DNA from: Sulfurovum sp.
GTDB lineage: Bacteria; Campylobacterota; Campylobacteria; Campylobacterales; Sulfurovaceae
NCBI GenBank assembly: GCA_027081115.1
Contig: JALWLD010000057.1
Coordinates: 298,497 to 362,496 of the forward strand
Direction: 5' to 3'
DNA: 64,000 nucleotides
The notes under the pieces were generated by a model, which was given only the letters and a program-made list of their open reading frames with translations, was not told where the DNA came from and did not search any database. Shown here one piece after another: positions 54,839 through 61,514 of the stretch. The position numbers and the translations under genes were made by a program. How positions within the stretch are numbered: position 1 is the stretch's first letter; every line of letters starts with the position of its first letter.

Positions 54839-55612
54839 TCACCCACATTTTCCCGGGGCACACTTCATGCCACCACATTTTCCATCCTTAGGGCTGCTTT
54901 TCATACTGTCGATCATCTCTTGCATTTCATTGGGATGTGCGACGAACTTATAGCCTTTGTACATAGTAAAGAGGCCGTAGAAAACTACAAGCATGGCTGC
55001 TAGCTTCATCATAGTGCCACGTAGAGAACCTTTTTGCAGGAACTTGGTAATACTTCCTAAAAAGAAAAGGGCAGGAATCGTTGCCAATCCAAAGGTAGCC
55101 ATGACGATGGCACCCCAGAGTGGGCTTGCTGTACTGGCCGCAATAATAGCAAAAGAGTAGACCAGACCACAAGGAATAATACCGTTTAGCATACCTAGTA
55201 GGTAAAAACTTGGGAGAGACTTGGAGCTTATGAGTTTTCTAAAGGCATTTTGATACCAGGCATTTTTTGAAACAGACCATTCTGCTGAGTTGAGGAACTT
55301 AAGGTTTCCCAGTAAAGAGAGTCCTGCAAGAATCATCAGAACACCTGTAAGTAAAAAAAGTACACCTTTGGTAGTGGGGGTAAAAGCAATAGCTTTACCC
55401 AAAAGTCCAAAAACAGCTCCTAAAATGGCATAAGTGGTCACACGACCAAAATTATAAGAGAGATGTGAAGCCGTCTGCTTTATCCAAGAGTCATTCTGGT
55501 CTACTTTAGTTGAAGAGTAGGCTACGACTATGCCACCACACATACCGATACAGTGTCCTACAGAACCTAAAAATGCTGTACTGAGTATGATGACTAGGTC
55601 AATGTTGTTCAT
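54839..55612 (-). CDS. SafE-type membrane protein with cysteine-rich GKCG tail
   Basis: A 257-residue six-helix membrane protein of the 'sulfite exporter TauE/SafE' group typified by COG2836, often found with copper/cbb3-oxidase assembly genes. The start has the hallmark FLGSVGHCIGMCGGIVVAYS with an HC...CG pair, and the repeated PxGxxY helix is seen at GIIPCGLVYSFA. The last 15 residues are cysteine-rich (DGKCGGMKCAPGKCG), a metal-binding type tail also present in the lipoprotein at 61119. Likely role: passing copper or heme-related components across the membrane. Opposite to the YqiA-like gene; starts about 100 bases from the next plus-strand gene. Confidence 0.82.
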   Translation of the reverse strand: MNNIDLVIILSTAFLGSVGHCIGMCGGIVVAYSSTKVDQNDSWIKQTASHLSYNFGRVTTYAILGAVFGLLGKAIAFTPTTKGVLFLLTGVLMILAGLSLLGNLKFLNSAEWSVSKNAWYQNAFRKLISSKSLPSFYLLGMLNGIIPCGLVYSFAIIAASTASPLWGAIVMATFGLATIPALFFLGSITKFLQKGSLRGTMMKLAAMLVVFYGLFTMYKGYKFVAHPNEMQEMIDSMKSSPKDGKCGGMKCAPGKCG

Positions 55613-57276: not shown

Positions 57277-57705
57277 ATGAATGTTAATGTTGTATGTCCA
57301 CATTGTCTCAAAGTAAATCGAATTCCAAAGAAAGAGTCTTATGCAAAAGCTAACTGTGGTTCTTGTAAACAGTCACTTTTAGATGCAAAGCCTGTACCGG
57401 TAAATGCCGATAAACTTGCAACGTTCCTAGCTAATTCAGAGATCCCTGTAGTAGTGGATTTCTGGGCACCTTGGTGCGGTCCATGCTTGCAGATGGCTCC
57501 GGCTTTTGAAGAAGCAGCACTCTCTATGCCTCTACAGGCACAGTTTTTGAAAGTGAACACAGAAGAGGAACAGACGCTGGGTGCGCAGTATGGTATTCGC
57601 AGTATCCCGACACTGATCGTCTTTAAGAATGGAAAGCAGGTAGATCAGCTCTCCGGTGCATTGAGTGCAGGACGTTTACAGTCATGGGTAAAACAGTTTG
57701 TCTAA
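57277..57705 (+). CDS. trxC: TrxC-type thioredoxin with N-terminal zinc ribbon
   Basis: A 142-residue thioredoxin starting at MNVNVVCPH; GGAGG precedes it and the longer frame has no such site. Residues 7-30 hold two CxxC pairs (CPHC and CGSC), the zinc ribbon of TrxC. The thioredoxin core follows with VVVDFWAPWCGPCLQMAP (active site WCGPC near 72) and IRSIPTLIVFKNG (cis-Pro). TrxC-type proteins respond to oxidative stress. The response-regulator gene starts inside its last codons (8-base overlap). Confidence 0.92.
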   Translation: MNVNVVCPHCLKVNRIPKKESYAKANCGSCKQSLLDAKPVPVNADKLATFLANSEIPVVVDFWAPWCGPCLQMAPAFEEAALSMPLQAQFLKVNTEEEQTLGAQYGIRSIPTLIVFKNGKQVDQLSGALSAGRLQSWVKQFV

Positions 57706-58369
57706 AATACTTTTACTTGAAGATGATGCCAATCTGAATGATACCGTTACAGAGTTCTTAGAAGATCAGGGGTACGATGTTGTCTCCGTCTATGATGGCG
57801 ATGAAGCGCAGGAAAAACTCTATGAGAGCAGGTATGATTTGTTGCTGCTTGATATTAATGTACCAGGTATAGATGGATTGAAACTTTTAAAAGAGAGTAG
57901 AGAGGGTGGTGTAGTTGCTCCTGCCATTTTTATTACTTCTATGGATACCGTGGATGACCTTGAGAAAGGTTTCAACTCCGGATGTGATGACTATATACGT
58001 AAACCCTTTGCTCTTAAAGAGTTGCATATACGTATTGAGACACTGCTCAAACGTGATTTTTTTCATAACTCTAAAGAGTTGATGCAGATCGCTGAGGGTA
58101 TCTCTTATGATATCAAAAGTAATGAACTGCTAATTAACGGAGAAGATATCTCCTTGGGAAACAAAGAGTCCAGACTGTTAAAACTTTTTCTTAAACATGA
58201 GGGAGAAGTGATTGCACATGAACGTATCTATGAGAACTTGTGGGACTATGATGAAGAGCCAAGCGATACAGCGCTTCGCACCTACATTAAGAATCTTCGT
58301 AAAATTATAGGGAAAGAGCGTATTGTTAGTATCAAGAAACAAGGCTACAAATTCAGTACTCAAAAGTGA
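57698..58369 (+). CDS. OmpR-type response regulator
   Basis: A 223-residue two-component regulator. The receiver domain has ILLLEDDANL (acid pair near 8-9), the phospho-acceptor Asp in LLLLDINVPGIDG near 51, and the conserved Lys in YIRKPFALKEL near 101. The C-terminal winged helix (about 125-222) shows LLKLFLKHEGEVIAHERIYENLW and DTALRTYIKNLRKIIG. The start is TTG at 57698, overlapping the thioredoxin by 8 bases. The kinase frame begins inside this gene, so all three are translationally coupled. The trigger is unknown. Confidence 0.92.
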   Translation: MSKILLLEDDANLNDTVTEFLEDQGYDVVSVYDGDEAQEKLYESRYDLLLLDINVPGIDGLKLLKESREGGVVAPAIFITSMDTVDDLEKGFNSGCDDYIRKPFALKELHIRIETLLKRDFFHNSKELMQIAEGISYDIKSNELLINGEDISLGNKESRLLKLFLKHEGEVIAHERIYENLWDYDEEPSDTALRTYIKNLRKIIGKERIVSIKKQGYKFSTQK

Positions 58370-59510
58370 AAAAACATCTCTACTGAGATTTTTTTCACTC
58401 TATGTTACGATGATCATGCTATTGATCACGCTCTCTTCACTCTTTTACTACCAAACACAAGAGAAACTCTTTTTAGCACAACAACGTGCAACCCTCACAA
58501 AATATGCTTACATACAAACCAAAAGACTAAAAGTTTTGCATCACTACTTTTATGAGAGAAAAACTTATCCCAGAGATGAACGTTTTAAATCGGCCATTTA
58601 CGATATTGACCTCAAAAAGATTTTTTCTTTACTGGAAAATACAAATATTAGATTTGATGAGGATATCTATATAGATAATAACTATATACATTTTGTCAAG
58701 AGTTTGGATGTCTATTTTTTAGGTGCCAAGTATCTGGTACTTGAGATAAAAGATGACGGGCTTTGGCGCGATACTATTTGGAAAACAATCTTGGGGTATG
58801 GGACACTTGCATTTATACTCTTTATGTTGTTTGGACTCTATTTGGCAAAGCTTTTTCTTAAACCCATGCGTGACTCTATCATGTTATTGGACAGGTTTAT
58901 TAAAGATACAACACATGAGCTCAATACCCCACTTTCTGCTATTTTGGCAAATATTGAAATGATGGATACCCATGTGATGGTTGAGAAAAACAGAAAAAAA
59001 CTGACACGTATTAATATCGCAGCTAAAACAGTTTCTACTCTCTATAAAGATCTGACTTATCTGACTTTGGAACAGGAGAAAGAGAACAACGATGAGAAGT
59101 TGAATATCAAACATATTATTCTAGACAGGGTAGAGTACTTTGATATTTTGGCAAAGTCTAAAAATATCAGTTTTAAATTAAATCTTGACAACTCTACTAT
59201 TGTGATGGACAGACGAAAATTTGTCAGGGTGGTAGACAACTTTCTTTCTAATGCTATTAAATACAATATACGTGGTGGTAAGATAGATATTCTTCTTATA
59301 GATAACGTACTGAGTTTTAAAGATACCGGTATAGGGATTTCTGAAGAGAAAATACCATTTATGTTTGATCGGTATATGCGTTTTAACCAAAGTGAGGGTG
59401 GTTTTGGTATTGGTTTGAGTATAGTAAAAAAGATACTGGATGAATATCATATAAATATAGAAGTACAATCTAAAATAGGAGTAGGTACCAAAATGGTGAT
59501 ATCATGGTAA
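58323..59510 (+). CDS. Membrane sensor histidine kinase
   Basis: A 395-residue kinase, the likely partner of the upstream regulator. Two membrane helices (about 25-45 and 155-177) bracket a sensor domain of roughly 110 residues. Then HisKA: phosphoryl His in FIKDTTHELNTPLSAI near 203; N-box VDNFLSNAIKYN; G1 FKDTGIGISEEKI; G2 GGFGIGLSIVKKI. The drawn TTG start overlaps the regulator by 47 bases; no better in-frame start exists before the first helix, so the exact start is uncertain. The downstream cytochrome starts inside its stop region (overlap 7 bases). Confidence 0.9.
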   Translation: MLVSRNKATNSVLKSEKTSLLRFFSLYVTMIMLLITLSSLFYYQTQEKLFLAQQRATLTKYAYIQTKRLKVLHHYFYERKTYPRDERFKSAIYDIDLKKIFSLLENTNIRFDEDIYIDNNYIHFVKSLDVYFLGAKYLVLEIKDDGLWRDTIWKTILGYGTLAFILFMLFGLYLAKLFLKPMRDSIMLLDRFIKDTTHELNTPLSAILANIEMMDTHVMVEKNRKKLTRINIAAKTVSTLYKDLTYLTLEQEKENNDEKLNIKHIILDRVEYFDILAKSKNISFKLNLDNSTIVMDRRKFVRVVDNFLSNAIKYNIRGGKIDILLIDNVLSFKDTGIGISEEKIPFMFDRYMRFNQSEGGFGIGLSIVKKILDEYHINIEVQSKIGVGTKMVISW

Positions 59511-59836
59511 AGTCGGCAATCGTTTTCATATTTTTAACACTTTTTGTGCAGGCACAAGATATTTATACACGTAACTGCATTCCTTGTCATAAAAATCTAC
59601 CAACCTCTTTGCAGCAAATGTTTATGTCTTACCTGGCCGCTTACAGTGGAGAGACAAATGTAAAAGCTGTTTTACGGTTTTATTTGACCAAACCTACAAA
59701 AAGTATCTCTGTGATGTCAGATCTGTTTATAGATAACTATGGCATAAAAGAGCCGACAACATTGAGTAAAGAAGAACTTAACGAAGCTATCGATATCTAT
59801 TGGGAAAAGTTTAAGGTTTTTGATAAGTTGAAGTAG
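59504..59836 (+). CDS. Monoheme c-type cytochrome coupled to the two-component genes
   Basis: A 110-residue protein with a short signal peptide (about 1-17, ending VQAQ) and one heme-binding CIPCH motif at 24-28 (NCIPCHKN). The distal Met is probable near MSD in ISVMSDLFIDN. The C-terminal helix is charged. Because its ATG overlaps the kinase stop by 7 bases, it belongs to the same operon, suggesting a redox partner or heme-based sensor accessory. No close match is claimed. Confidence 0.8.
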   Translation: MVKSAIVFIFLTLFVQAQDIYTRNCIPCHKNLPTSLQQMFMSYLAAYSGETNVKAVLRFYLTKPTKSISVMSDLFIDNYGIKEPTTLSKEELNEAIDIYWEKFKVFDKLK

Positions 59837-59879: not shown

Positions 59880-60203
59880 ATGAAAAGACTATTCACCGTA
59901 TTGGCATTGGCATTTTTTGTTCTTGCAAGTACACCATCTATTGTATCTGCAGCAAGTGCAAAAAAAGGGCAAAAACTGTTCAAAAAGAAGTTCCGTAAGA
60001 AATGTGGTTTCTCAGGTGTGCGTTTTGCAAGAAATCATACACAGGCTGAATGGGAAAATATTTATGAAAAAGGCAAGTTTCCAAGTGAAGCAAAAAAGAT
60101 CTGTCCACGTTTAGATACAAAGAAGATTAAGAAAAAATGGTGGAAAGATGTTTATAAATTCACTAAAAAATATGCAAGCGACGGTGTTGTTCCTAAATGT
60201 TAA
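59880..60203 (+). CDS. Secreted basic CGFSG protein A, cytochrome-like without CXXCH
   Basis: A 107-residue protein with a signal peptide (MKRLFTVLALAFFVLASTPSIVSA). The mature part begins SAKKGQKLFKKKFRKKCGFSG, where a class I cytochrome c would have the CxxCH heme motif after such a helix, but only one Cys is present. Further conserved elements are FARNHTQAEW, GKFPSEAKKICP and a C-terminal VPKC, giving three Cys shared with its neighbour. It is unusually Lys-rich. Function unknown; it could carry a metal, heme by other ligands, or a disulfide. A classic terminator follows (60236). Confidence 0.8.
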   Translation: MKRLFTVLALAFFVLASTPSIVSAASAKKGQKLFKKKFRKKCGFSGVRFARNHTQAEWENIYEKGKFPSEAKKICPRLDTKKIKKKWWKDVYKFTKKYASDGVVPKC

Positions 60204-60235
60204 ACCATTTGTACTTTTGCAAATGTAACTTCTTG

Positions 60236-60265
60236 AAGCAGTAATTTTCTTACTGCTTTTTTTTT
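60236..60265 (+). terminator. Intrinsic terminator after CGFSG gene A
   Basis: AAGCAGTAA TTTTC TTACTGCTT followed by a nine-T run, the most textbook terminator in the window. It separates the paralogous genes, so the second has its own promoter. Confidence 0.88.
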
Positions 60266-60335
60266 CACTTTTCCTCACAATCTTTTCACAATTACATGTT
60301 ATCATCCTTCTGTACTAAAAATTAAAAGGATAAAC

Positions 60336-60650
60336 ATGACTAAAATGACTAAAATTGCACTAGCTGCATTACTTGGACTAGCGGTACTTTCAACAACTGC
60401 ATCTGCAGACTCAAACAAAGGTAAAAAGATCTATATGAAGAAAATGAAATCTTCTTGTGGTTTCTCAGGTGCTAAGTTTGCTACAAAACACACACAGGGT
60501 GAGTGGGAAAAGATCAAAGGTGCTGGTAAATTTGCTACTGAAGCTGCAAAAATCTGCCCAGGTCTTAAGTTGAAAGACAAGTATGTAAACGATGTTTATG
60601 ATTTTGCTTATGAGTATGCATCTGATTCAGGTAACGTACCTTCTTGCTAA
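60336..60650 (+). CDS. Secreted CGFSG protein B, paralogue of the preceding gene
   Basis: A 104-residue protein with signal peptide (about 1-23, ending TTASA). The mature part reads NKGKKIYMKKMKSSCGFSGA, KFATKHTQGEWEKI, GAGKFATEAAKICPGL and ends NVPSC. It aligns end to end with protein A: the CGFSG box, HTQxEW, GKF..EA.KIC and the terminal Cys are shared, while it is far less basic. Both look like cytochrome c folds that lost CXXCH. RBS AAAAGGA. Possible start at the second Met (60345). Confidence 0.8.
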   Translation: MTKMTKIALAALLGLAVLSTTASADSNKGKKIYMKKMKSSCGFSGAKFATKHTQGEWEKIKGAGKFATEAAKICPGLKLKDKYVNDVYDFAYEYASDSGNVPSC

Positions 60651-60759: not shown

Positions 60760-61056
60760 ATGAAAAAAATCGCAATCGCAATGTTATTCGCTGGATCTAC
60801 ACTACTTATGGCTGACGGAGCTGCTGCATATGCTAAATGTGCTGGTTGTCACGGAGCTAATGGTGAAAAAGCTGCACTTGGTAAATCTGCAATCATTACA
60901 GGTCAAGATGCTGCTAAAACTCTAGAGCAACTTAAAGGTTACAAAGCTGGAACTCTTAACCAACACGGTATGGGTGCAGTTATGAAAGGTCAAGTAGCTT
61001 CTATGGATGATGCTGCTCTTCAAGCTGTATCTGATCATATTGCTGCAATGAAGTAA
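60760..61056 (+). CDS. Class I c-type cytochrome (c553-like)
   Basis: A 98-residue periplasmic monoheme cytochrome. Signal peptide MKKIAIAMLFAGSTLLMA, then AYAKCAGCHGANGEKAALG with the CAGCH heme site at about 27-31, and an axial Met in GMGAVMKGQVASMDD; the C-terminal helix is DAALQAVSDHIAAMK. The small size and layout match the cytochrome c553 electron carriers of Campylobacterota. RBS AAAGGA precedes the ATG, with a TATACT-like -10 upstream. A terminator hairpin follows. Confidence 0.92.
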   Translation: MKKIAIAMLFAGSTLLMADGAAAYAKCAGCHGANGEKAALGKSAIITGQDAAKTLEQLKGYKAGTLNQHGMGAVMKGQVASMDDAALQAVSDHIAAMK

Positions 61057-61118: not shown

Positions 61119-61514
61119 TCAACCGTTAGAACATTTTCCTGTAGCACATTTCATTTTATTTTTCTCTTCTTTTTTTGGTATTTTTTTCTCTACAGCTTTA
61201 AATGTATGACTTTTTTTCTCAATGCTTAACCTACCTGTCTCTGGGTCACGTACACAGTTGTATAGGGCTTTGGTTGTTCTAGCTTTGAGTACACAGTCTC
61301 TACGTTTATCCTTTTTACTGAGTTGATCAACAATATTCATCTTTTTTTTCACAAGTACAGCAGAACCATCTACCATACTTGAGCCACATTTTCCGACACC
61401 ACATTTCATGCCACCCTCTGTGAGAGACTTTTTTTCCTCTTTTTCAGTACATCCTGAGAGGAGGAGACTCATTACAAACAGTGAGAGTAAAATGAACCTT
61501 ATATGGGTTTTCAT
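61119..61514 (-). CDS. Lipoprotein with two MKCxxGKC metal-binding-like motifs
   Basis: A 131-residue protein with a lipoprotein signal (MKTHIRFILLSLFVMSLLLSGC, lipobox LLSGC at Cys22). Two copies of a cysteine motif flank it: MKCGVGKCGSSM near residues 36-47 and MKCATGKCSNG at the C-terminus. A third near-match (KCGGMKCAPGKCG) sits at the end of the SafE-type protein. Such Cys pairs suggest binding of copper or another soft metal, or heme delivery. It is 1 base downstream of the CusA-type gene and has a strong AAGGAG ribosome site, so it is part of that efflux unit. Confidence 0.75.
   Translation of the reverse strand: MKTHIRFILLSLFVMSLLLSGCTEKEEKKSLTEGGMKCGVGKCGSSMVDGSAVLVKKKMNIVDQLSKKDKRRDCVLKARTTKALYNCVRDPETGRLSIEKKSHTFKAVEKKIPKKEEKNKMKCATGKCSNG

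Follow-up and report, generated by a model that had tools for sequence, protein, structure and literature searches.

Two neighbouring plus-strand genes in the 64,000-nucleotide stretch of DNA analysed here (the window) raise the question of whether a chain inherited from cytochrome c, a protein defined by its heme, can be kept without that heme, and what such a protein would then do. The original prediction had described their products as twin secreted proteins with common motifs, and both open reading frames were indeed found: protein A (59880-60203, 107 amino acids) and protein B (60336-60650, 104 amino acids), each beginning with a stretch that by eye resembles a signal peptide (59880-59951 in A and 60336-60404 in B). 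CGFSG, HTQxEW, ICP and a terminal VP(K/S)C are common to both, and three cysteines fall within these motifs, namely C1 in CGFSG (60003-60005 in A, 60456-60458 in B), C2 in ICP (60102-60104 and 60555-60557) and C3 as the final residue of VPKC in A (60198-60200) and of VPSC in B (60645-60647). Given that A and B are 51% identical (E 1.5e-24), their common motifs reflect homology, and chance sharing is ruled out by this identity together with more than 200 distinct homologues. They are the sole family members found in the window's genome.

No significant Pfam or NCBIfam match was obtained for A, B or 60 relatives, and single-sequence searches likewise found nothing significant in Pfam, NCBIfam or the PDB. 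The claim that no described family accounts for the pair thus holds, and no profile match of A or B to a characterised Pfam or NCBIfam family speaks against it. Relatives of A are present in 191 of the 299 Campylobacterales genomes sampled, and 29 GTDB contigs, the majority with a Sulfurovum label, carry close relatives of B. A family profile search across a phylum-wide sample, which had been proposed as a check, placed every match within one order, Campylobacterales. One contig (L021, DQTL01000212.1) is labelled Lutibacter (Bacteroidota) and is probably mis-binned because it carries a complete Sulfurovum-type locus. The viral contigs and plasmids searched contained no relatives, and a phage or plasmid origin was rejected on that basis; Foldseek found no match among viral proteins.

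A profile built from 60 members of the close heme-less group (A1) reached two further groups, a heme group (A2) and a second heme-less group (A3), resulting in 225 distinct members (163 A1, 50 A2 and 12 A3). CXXCH occurs in 50/50 A2 proteins and in 0/163 A1 and 0/12 A3 proteins. The A2 proteins combine a true CXXCH with the EW helix and, in most cases, a DSGNVP-C tail, while the heme site of A3 proteins is devoid of both Cys and His. Some variants were seen along the way. An extra Sulfurovum-type paralogue (L017:5805-6140, L021:3628-3954, L022:6023-6385 and L023:2865-3221) reads FKQxEW, without the His of HTQxEW, and retains the three cysteines and the tail. In addition, the heme-less domain forms the C-terminal end of lipoprotein-like proteins of 420-550 amino acids with long alanine-rich repeats of the AKSVASVEIAKA type (L062:1893-3473, L063:3204-4865, L064:1573-3159, L065:1375-2922 and L066:2372-3634), as if the domain were tethered to the membrane through a coiled spacer.

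Four of the six A2 proteins tested score above the cut-off of a Pfam cytochrome model (Cytochrome_CBB3 or Cytochrom_C), and the Pfam cytochrome models gave no match to A and B at the curated cut-off. Profile-profile comparison with hhalign connected A1 with A2 (E 4.4e-25), A1 with A3 (2.3e-31) and A2 with A3 (8.2e-30), and these connections persisted without the conserved tail (2.4e-15, 1.9e-22 and 1.4e-19, respectively). When 13,101 open reading frames were searched with the tail-less A1 model at E below 1e-3, 40 of the 56 A2 entries were recovered and no unrelated frame was matched. The tail-less profiles therefore rule out that the cytochrome likeness is due solely to the DSGNVPSC tail. Among PDB sequences, the superfamily profile scored best against cytochrome c-552 Ks_3358 (PDB 5mxy, chain residues 4-71; E 6.2e-5), a protein that has CXXCH, whereas the A1 profile alone reached it at an E of only 1.1. 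One member scored 13.6 bits against the cytochrome-like domain DUF1924 (PF09086), far under the cut-off of 22.5, and is not counted as a member of it. The proposed link to class I cytochromes c is thus borne out by the CXXCH homologues, the tail-less profiles and the c-552 match.

AF2 models of B were all-helical with five helices, at a mean pLDDT of 83 with A1 relatives only and of 90 with all groups; only the first model is independent, because the alignment behind the second included heme relatives. In the comparison of a predicted structure with known ones, another of the checks suggested, the best Foldseek matches in the PDB were cytochrome c6 (top 3) and various cytochrome c domains (top 6), at E above 1 and a TM of about 0.4, which is not significant alone. 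The modelled fold by itself is suggestive, and the claim of descent is carried by the chain of sequence comparisons. An unrelated helical fold that merely resembles cytochrome c would account for these Foldseek scores and for the lack of a Pfam cytochrome match by A and B; we regard this as scarcely tenable in view of profile connections with CXXCH proteins that greatly exceed chance, with or without the tail, and of the superfamily profile reaching a PDB cytochrome.

To place the heme change, a tree was built without the heme-site columns (86 columns and 132 rows, with many inner forks unresolved), in which a single branch separated heme from heme-less proteins (support 100/96). One change of the heme character suffices on this tree, making repeated independent loss unneeded. 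The change is read as a loss because A2 belongs with the cytochromes c, its direction coming from that membership and none being given by the tree itself. It is well supported by these sequence comparisons that A and B represent a cytochrome c lineage that lost its heme. They are cytochromes c by descent, yet they are without the defining feature of cytochromes c. With the class I proteins (PF00034 Cytochrom_C and PF13442 Cytochrome_CBB3) they share homology through the CXXCH sister group A2, a similar N-terminal helix, a similar length, secretion and an all-helical model; unlike them, they have no CXXCH, axial His or distal His, carry a Cys at the axial position and end in an extra Cys.

An ungapped, alignment-free count from the invariant Gly of KGQK indicates what now occupies the heme site. 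Position Gly+12 holds the axial His in 50/50 A2 proteins and a Cys, the C1 of CGFSG, in 162/163 A1 proteins, and the first heme Cys of A2 is located at Gly+8. In the tail-less hhalign alignment C1 falls against the second Cys of CXXCH, which differs by one residue from its place in the MAFFT alignment, and the Gly+12 count favours the His position. In A1 the heme-Cys columns are now mainly L/F/M and A/P/K/V. The original prediction was right that CXXCH is missing, and its remark that the second Cys and the His of the motif are absent can be made more precise: both heme-binding cysteines have disappeared, and the remaining Cys stands where the axial His would be. A second conserved His of A2, likely its distal ligand, falls in a column that holds I/A/V/M/L in A1, and C2 lies near this lost position in sequence. 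Conservation of three cysteines, as had been proposed, was confirmed, while the single His said to accompany them, that of HTQxEW, is not universal: 156/163 close homologues have it, and the others carry Phe, Tyr or Asn.

A Cys at the axial-His position in 162/163 proteins could mean that heme is still bound non-covalently, with the Cys thiolate as axial ligand after a His-to-Cys swap, in a b-type protein that perhaps senses gas or redox state together with the neighbouring kinase. A cytochrome c552 without its heme-binding cysteines still binds heme and retains its structure (PMC4451467), and a two-component system does adjoin the genes. We consider this quite improbable, however. A3 proteins have Thr or Ala at the axial position and no other obvious ligand, yet they retain the tail and the SQR and rhodanese neighbours; A1 proteins are several residues shorter than the heme members; and C1 is tied to C2, as expected of a disulfide, both being present in 162 proteins, both absent from 12 and split in one.

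By contrast with that b-type reading, the pattern can be explained by a heme-free cytochrome c subfamily in which C1 and C2 form a disulfide clamp and C3 is the carrier thiol for sulfane sulfur in the periplasm. This is our best explanation overall, to which we assign a probability of roughly one half. The sequences show that the heme-binding cysteines gave way to ordinary residues, that C1 occupies the axial His position and that the likely distal His is gone. The C1-C2 disulfide would pin, across the old heme site, a fold formerly held by heme, leaving C3 on a flexible tail as the working, swinging thiol. C3 is the most persistent of the cysteines: it is retained in 223/225 members (161/163 A1, 50/50 A2 and 12/12 A3), mostly as the C-terminal residue itself in A1 and A3 and, in A2, at a distance of one or two residues from the end, so that the feature common to all groups is a thiol ending a loose tail and not a heme. 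The tail of B that carries C3 was modelled at low confidence (pLDDT 53) and is probably flexible. Counting against the carrier reading, the terminal Cys is also found in the heme members, which have no sulfur neighbours.

In the sulfur carriers SoxY (of SoxYZ) and DsrC, too, a flexible C-terminal arm ends in a Cys, on folds that differ from those of A and B. The analogy would cover the position of the Cys for A and B and, in general, a sulfur-metabolism setting; no sequence similarity was found, and neither A nor B was hit by a Pfam or NCBIfam model of such carriers. Sud of Wolinella succinogenes, a periplasmic polysulfide sulfurtransferase of the rhodanese type, resembles A and B in the role proposed for them, passing polysulfide sulfur to a reductase, and comes from the same bacterial order; no rhodanese model matches A or B.

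As the neighbours of the relatives make, use or move sulfane sulfur, we favour a carrier of persulfide or polysulfide in the periplasm. Genes for Phs, NrfD, SQR or rhodanese lie within 4 kb of 33/70 heme-less genes and of 0/25 heme genes (Fisher 3.6e-6), a comparison in which the two sets come from overlapping, not identical, genomes and loci within a genus are not independent; counted by genus, the figures are 14/32 and 0/14 (p 0.004). Genomes with the family also have NrfD (26/32 versus 8/24) and SQR-III (28/32 versus 6/24) more often than those without it, a difference confounded by phylogeny. In f20 genomes the order is PhsA-like, PsrB-like, NrfD, a triple-rhodanese lipoprotein and B (L191-L194); in f16 genomes B often has a type III sulfide:quinone reductase nearby, together with a DUF3373 protein (L182-L184, L186 and L188-L190); and in f10 genomes, which we take to be Campylobacter-like, A3 is found beside a type III sulfide:quinone reductase and a rhodanese (L217 and L218). 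In such a setting, C3 would carry persulfide or polysulfide in the periplasm among SQR, rhodanese lipoproteins and the Phs/Psr molybdenum reductase, so that these proteins would transport sulfur where cytochromes transport electrons.

Two further neighbours were noted. The DUF3373 protein, which is outer-membrane-like and may be a sulfur-related porin, occurs near heme-less genes in 18/32 genera and near heme genes in 0/14 (examples include L128:3467-4906, L182, L183 and L206-L210). Some CXXCH relatives with the terminal Cys directly adjoin thioredoxin-like proteins (L169:2384-3213, L172:2797-3246, L175:1767-2586 and L181:2978-3837), one of which has weak DsbH similarity, and this hints at thiol chemistry for heme members too.

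The same sulfur-gene context would also fit a heme-free docking or assembly partner, in which the old cytochrome surface binds Phs/Psr, SQR, an outer-membrane protein or neighbouring cytochromes and the terminal Cys provides a disulfide link or a redox switch. Such a role is in keeping with the two cytochromes that flank A and B in the window, with the domain ending an alanine-rich lipoprotein in the loci of five genomes, as if tethered, and with the DsbH-like thioredoxin proteins beside heme relatives, which make thiol redox plausible. We nevertheless think it unlikely as a full account, because docking alone leaves unexplained both the greater persistence of the terminal Cys than of any other feature and the recurrence of sulfur genes alongside differing partners.

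A wider version of the carrier reading is that a bacterial order turned cytochrome c into a heme-free sulfur carrier through one heme loss, a disulfide clamp and a pre-existing terminal Cys that became the cargo site for polysulfide reductases, SQRs and rhodaneses; we put this forward tentatively, at somewhat less than even odds. Should the carrier role be proven, the family would form a new class of sulfur carrier. We know of no widespread described family that keeps the cytochrome c chain without heme, and a literature search of incomplete coverage found none, while this one occurs in about two thirds of the sampled Campylobacterales genomes, sulfur bacteria such as Sulfurovum included, and has no model in Pfam or NCBIfam. 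The activation and use of cyclooctasulfur by these bacteria has been stated to be not clearly understood (PMC10045233). A small thiol protein encoded near Phs/Psr, SQR and rhodanese genes is a concrete candidate for a part in S8 use.

For the window copies themselves the sulfur reading is transferred from relatives, as the direct neighbours of A and B are a two-component system and cytochromes, with no sulfur enzymes. In Sulfurovum and several other families the gene order is response regulator, histidine kinase, CxPCHK cytochrome, A and/or B, and c553. In the window, all on the plus strand, these correspond to a response regulator (57698-58369) paired with the conserved upstream sensor histidine kinase (58323-59510, whose true start may lie inside), a small CxPCHK monoheme cytochrome (59504-59836; conserved upstream in 78 loci, with a just marginal Pfam match), and, downstream of B, a c553-like cytochrome (60760-61056; conserved in 82 loci, Pfam Cytochrom_C 33.8 bits against a cut-off of 21.3). 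The two flanking cytochromes are those that the original prediction had named. Because of these neighbours, the role in the window could be regulatory or redox, and in Sulfurovum the locus may sense or control sulfur flow. A and B are probably not on one simple transcript, being separated by a plus-strand terminator-like hairpin with a T run (60235-60259), one of three such hairpins found in the region against 0.8 expected.

That one copy is basic and the other not was correct for A, whose mature form has a net charge of +19, and not for B, which is basic as well (+6); the idea that the two pair by charge is weak for this reason. Over 26 Sulfurovum-type pairs the charge ranges from +2 to +19 in A and from -2 to +8 in B. 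The Sulfurovum-type A copies form a single clade (support 95/95), and B is the copy kept across Campylobacterales. Being so basic, A may have a preference for anionic polysulfide or for acidic partners.

Three cysteines and a His could alternatively make A and B periplasmic copper- or zinc-binding proteins, and the Sulfurovum genes are indeed followed downstream by a CusA-like efflux gene and one for a Cys-rich lipoprotein. Both are on the opposite strand, however, other families have sulfur genes in their place, A3 has neither C1 nor the ICP Cys, and some close homologues lack the His, which makes metal binding very improbable. A role in copper handling was rejected likewise, its CusA-like neighbour being an opposite-strand gene of Sulfurovum-type loci.

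Finally, a repeated MKC(A/G)xGKC motif (GGMKCAPGKCG, GGMKCGVGKCG and KMKCATGKCSNG) was observed in two unrelated window proteins encoded on the minus strand (54839-55612 and 61119-61514), where it is perhaps a metal-binding tag.
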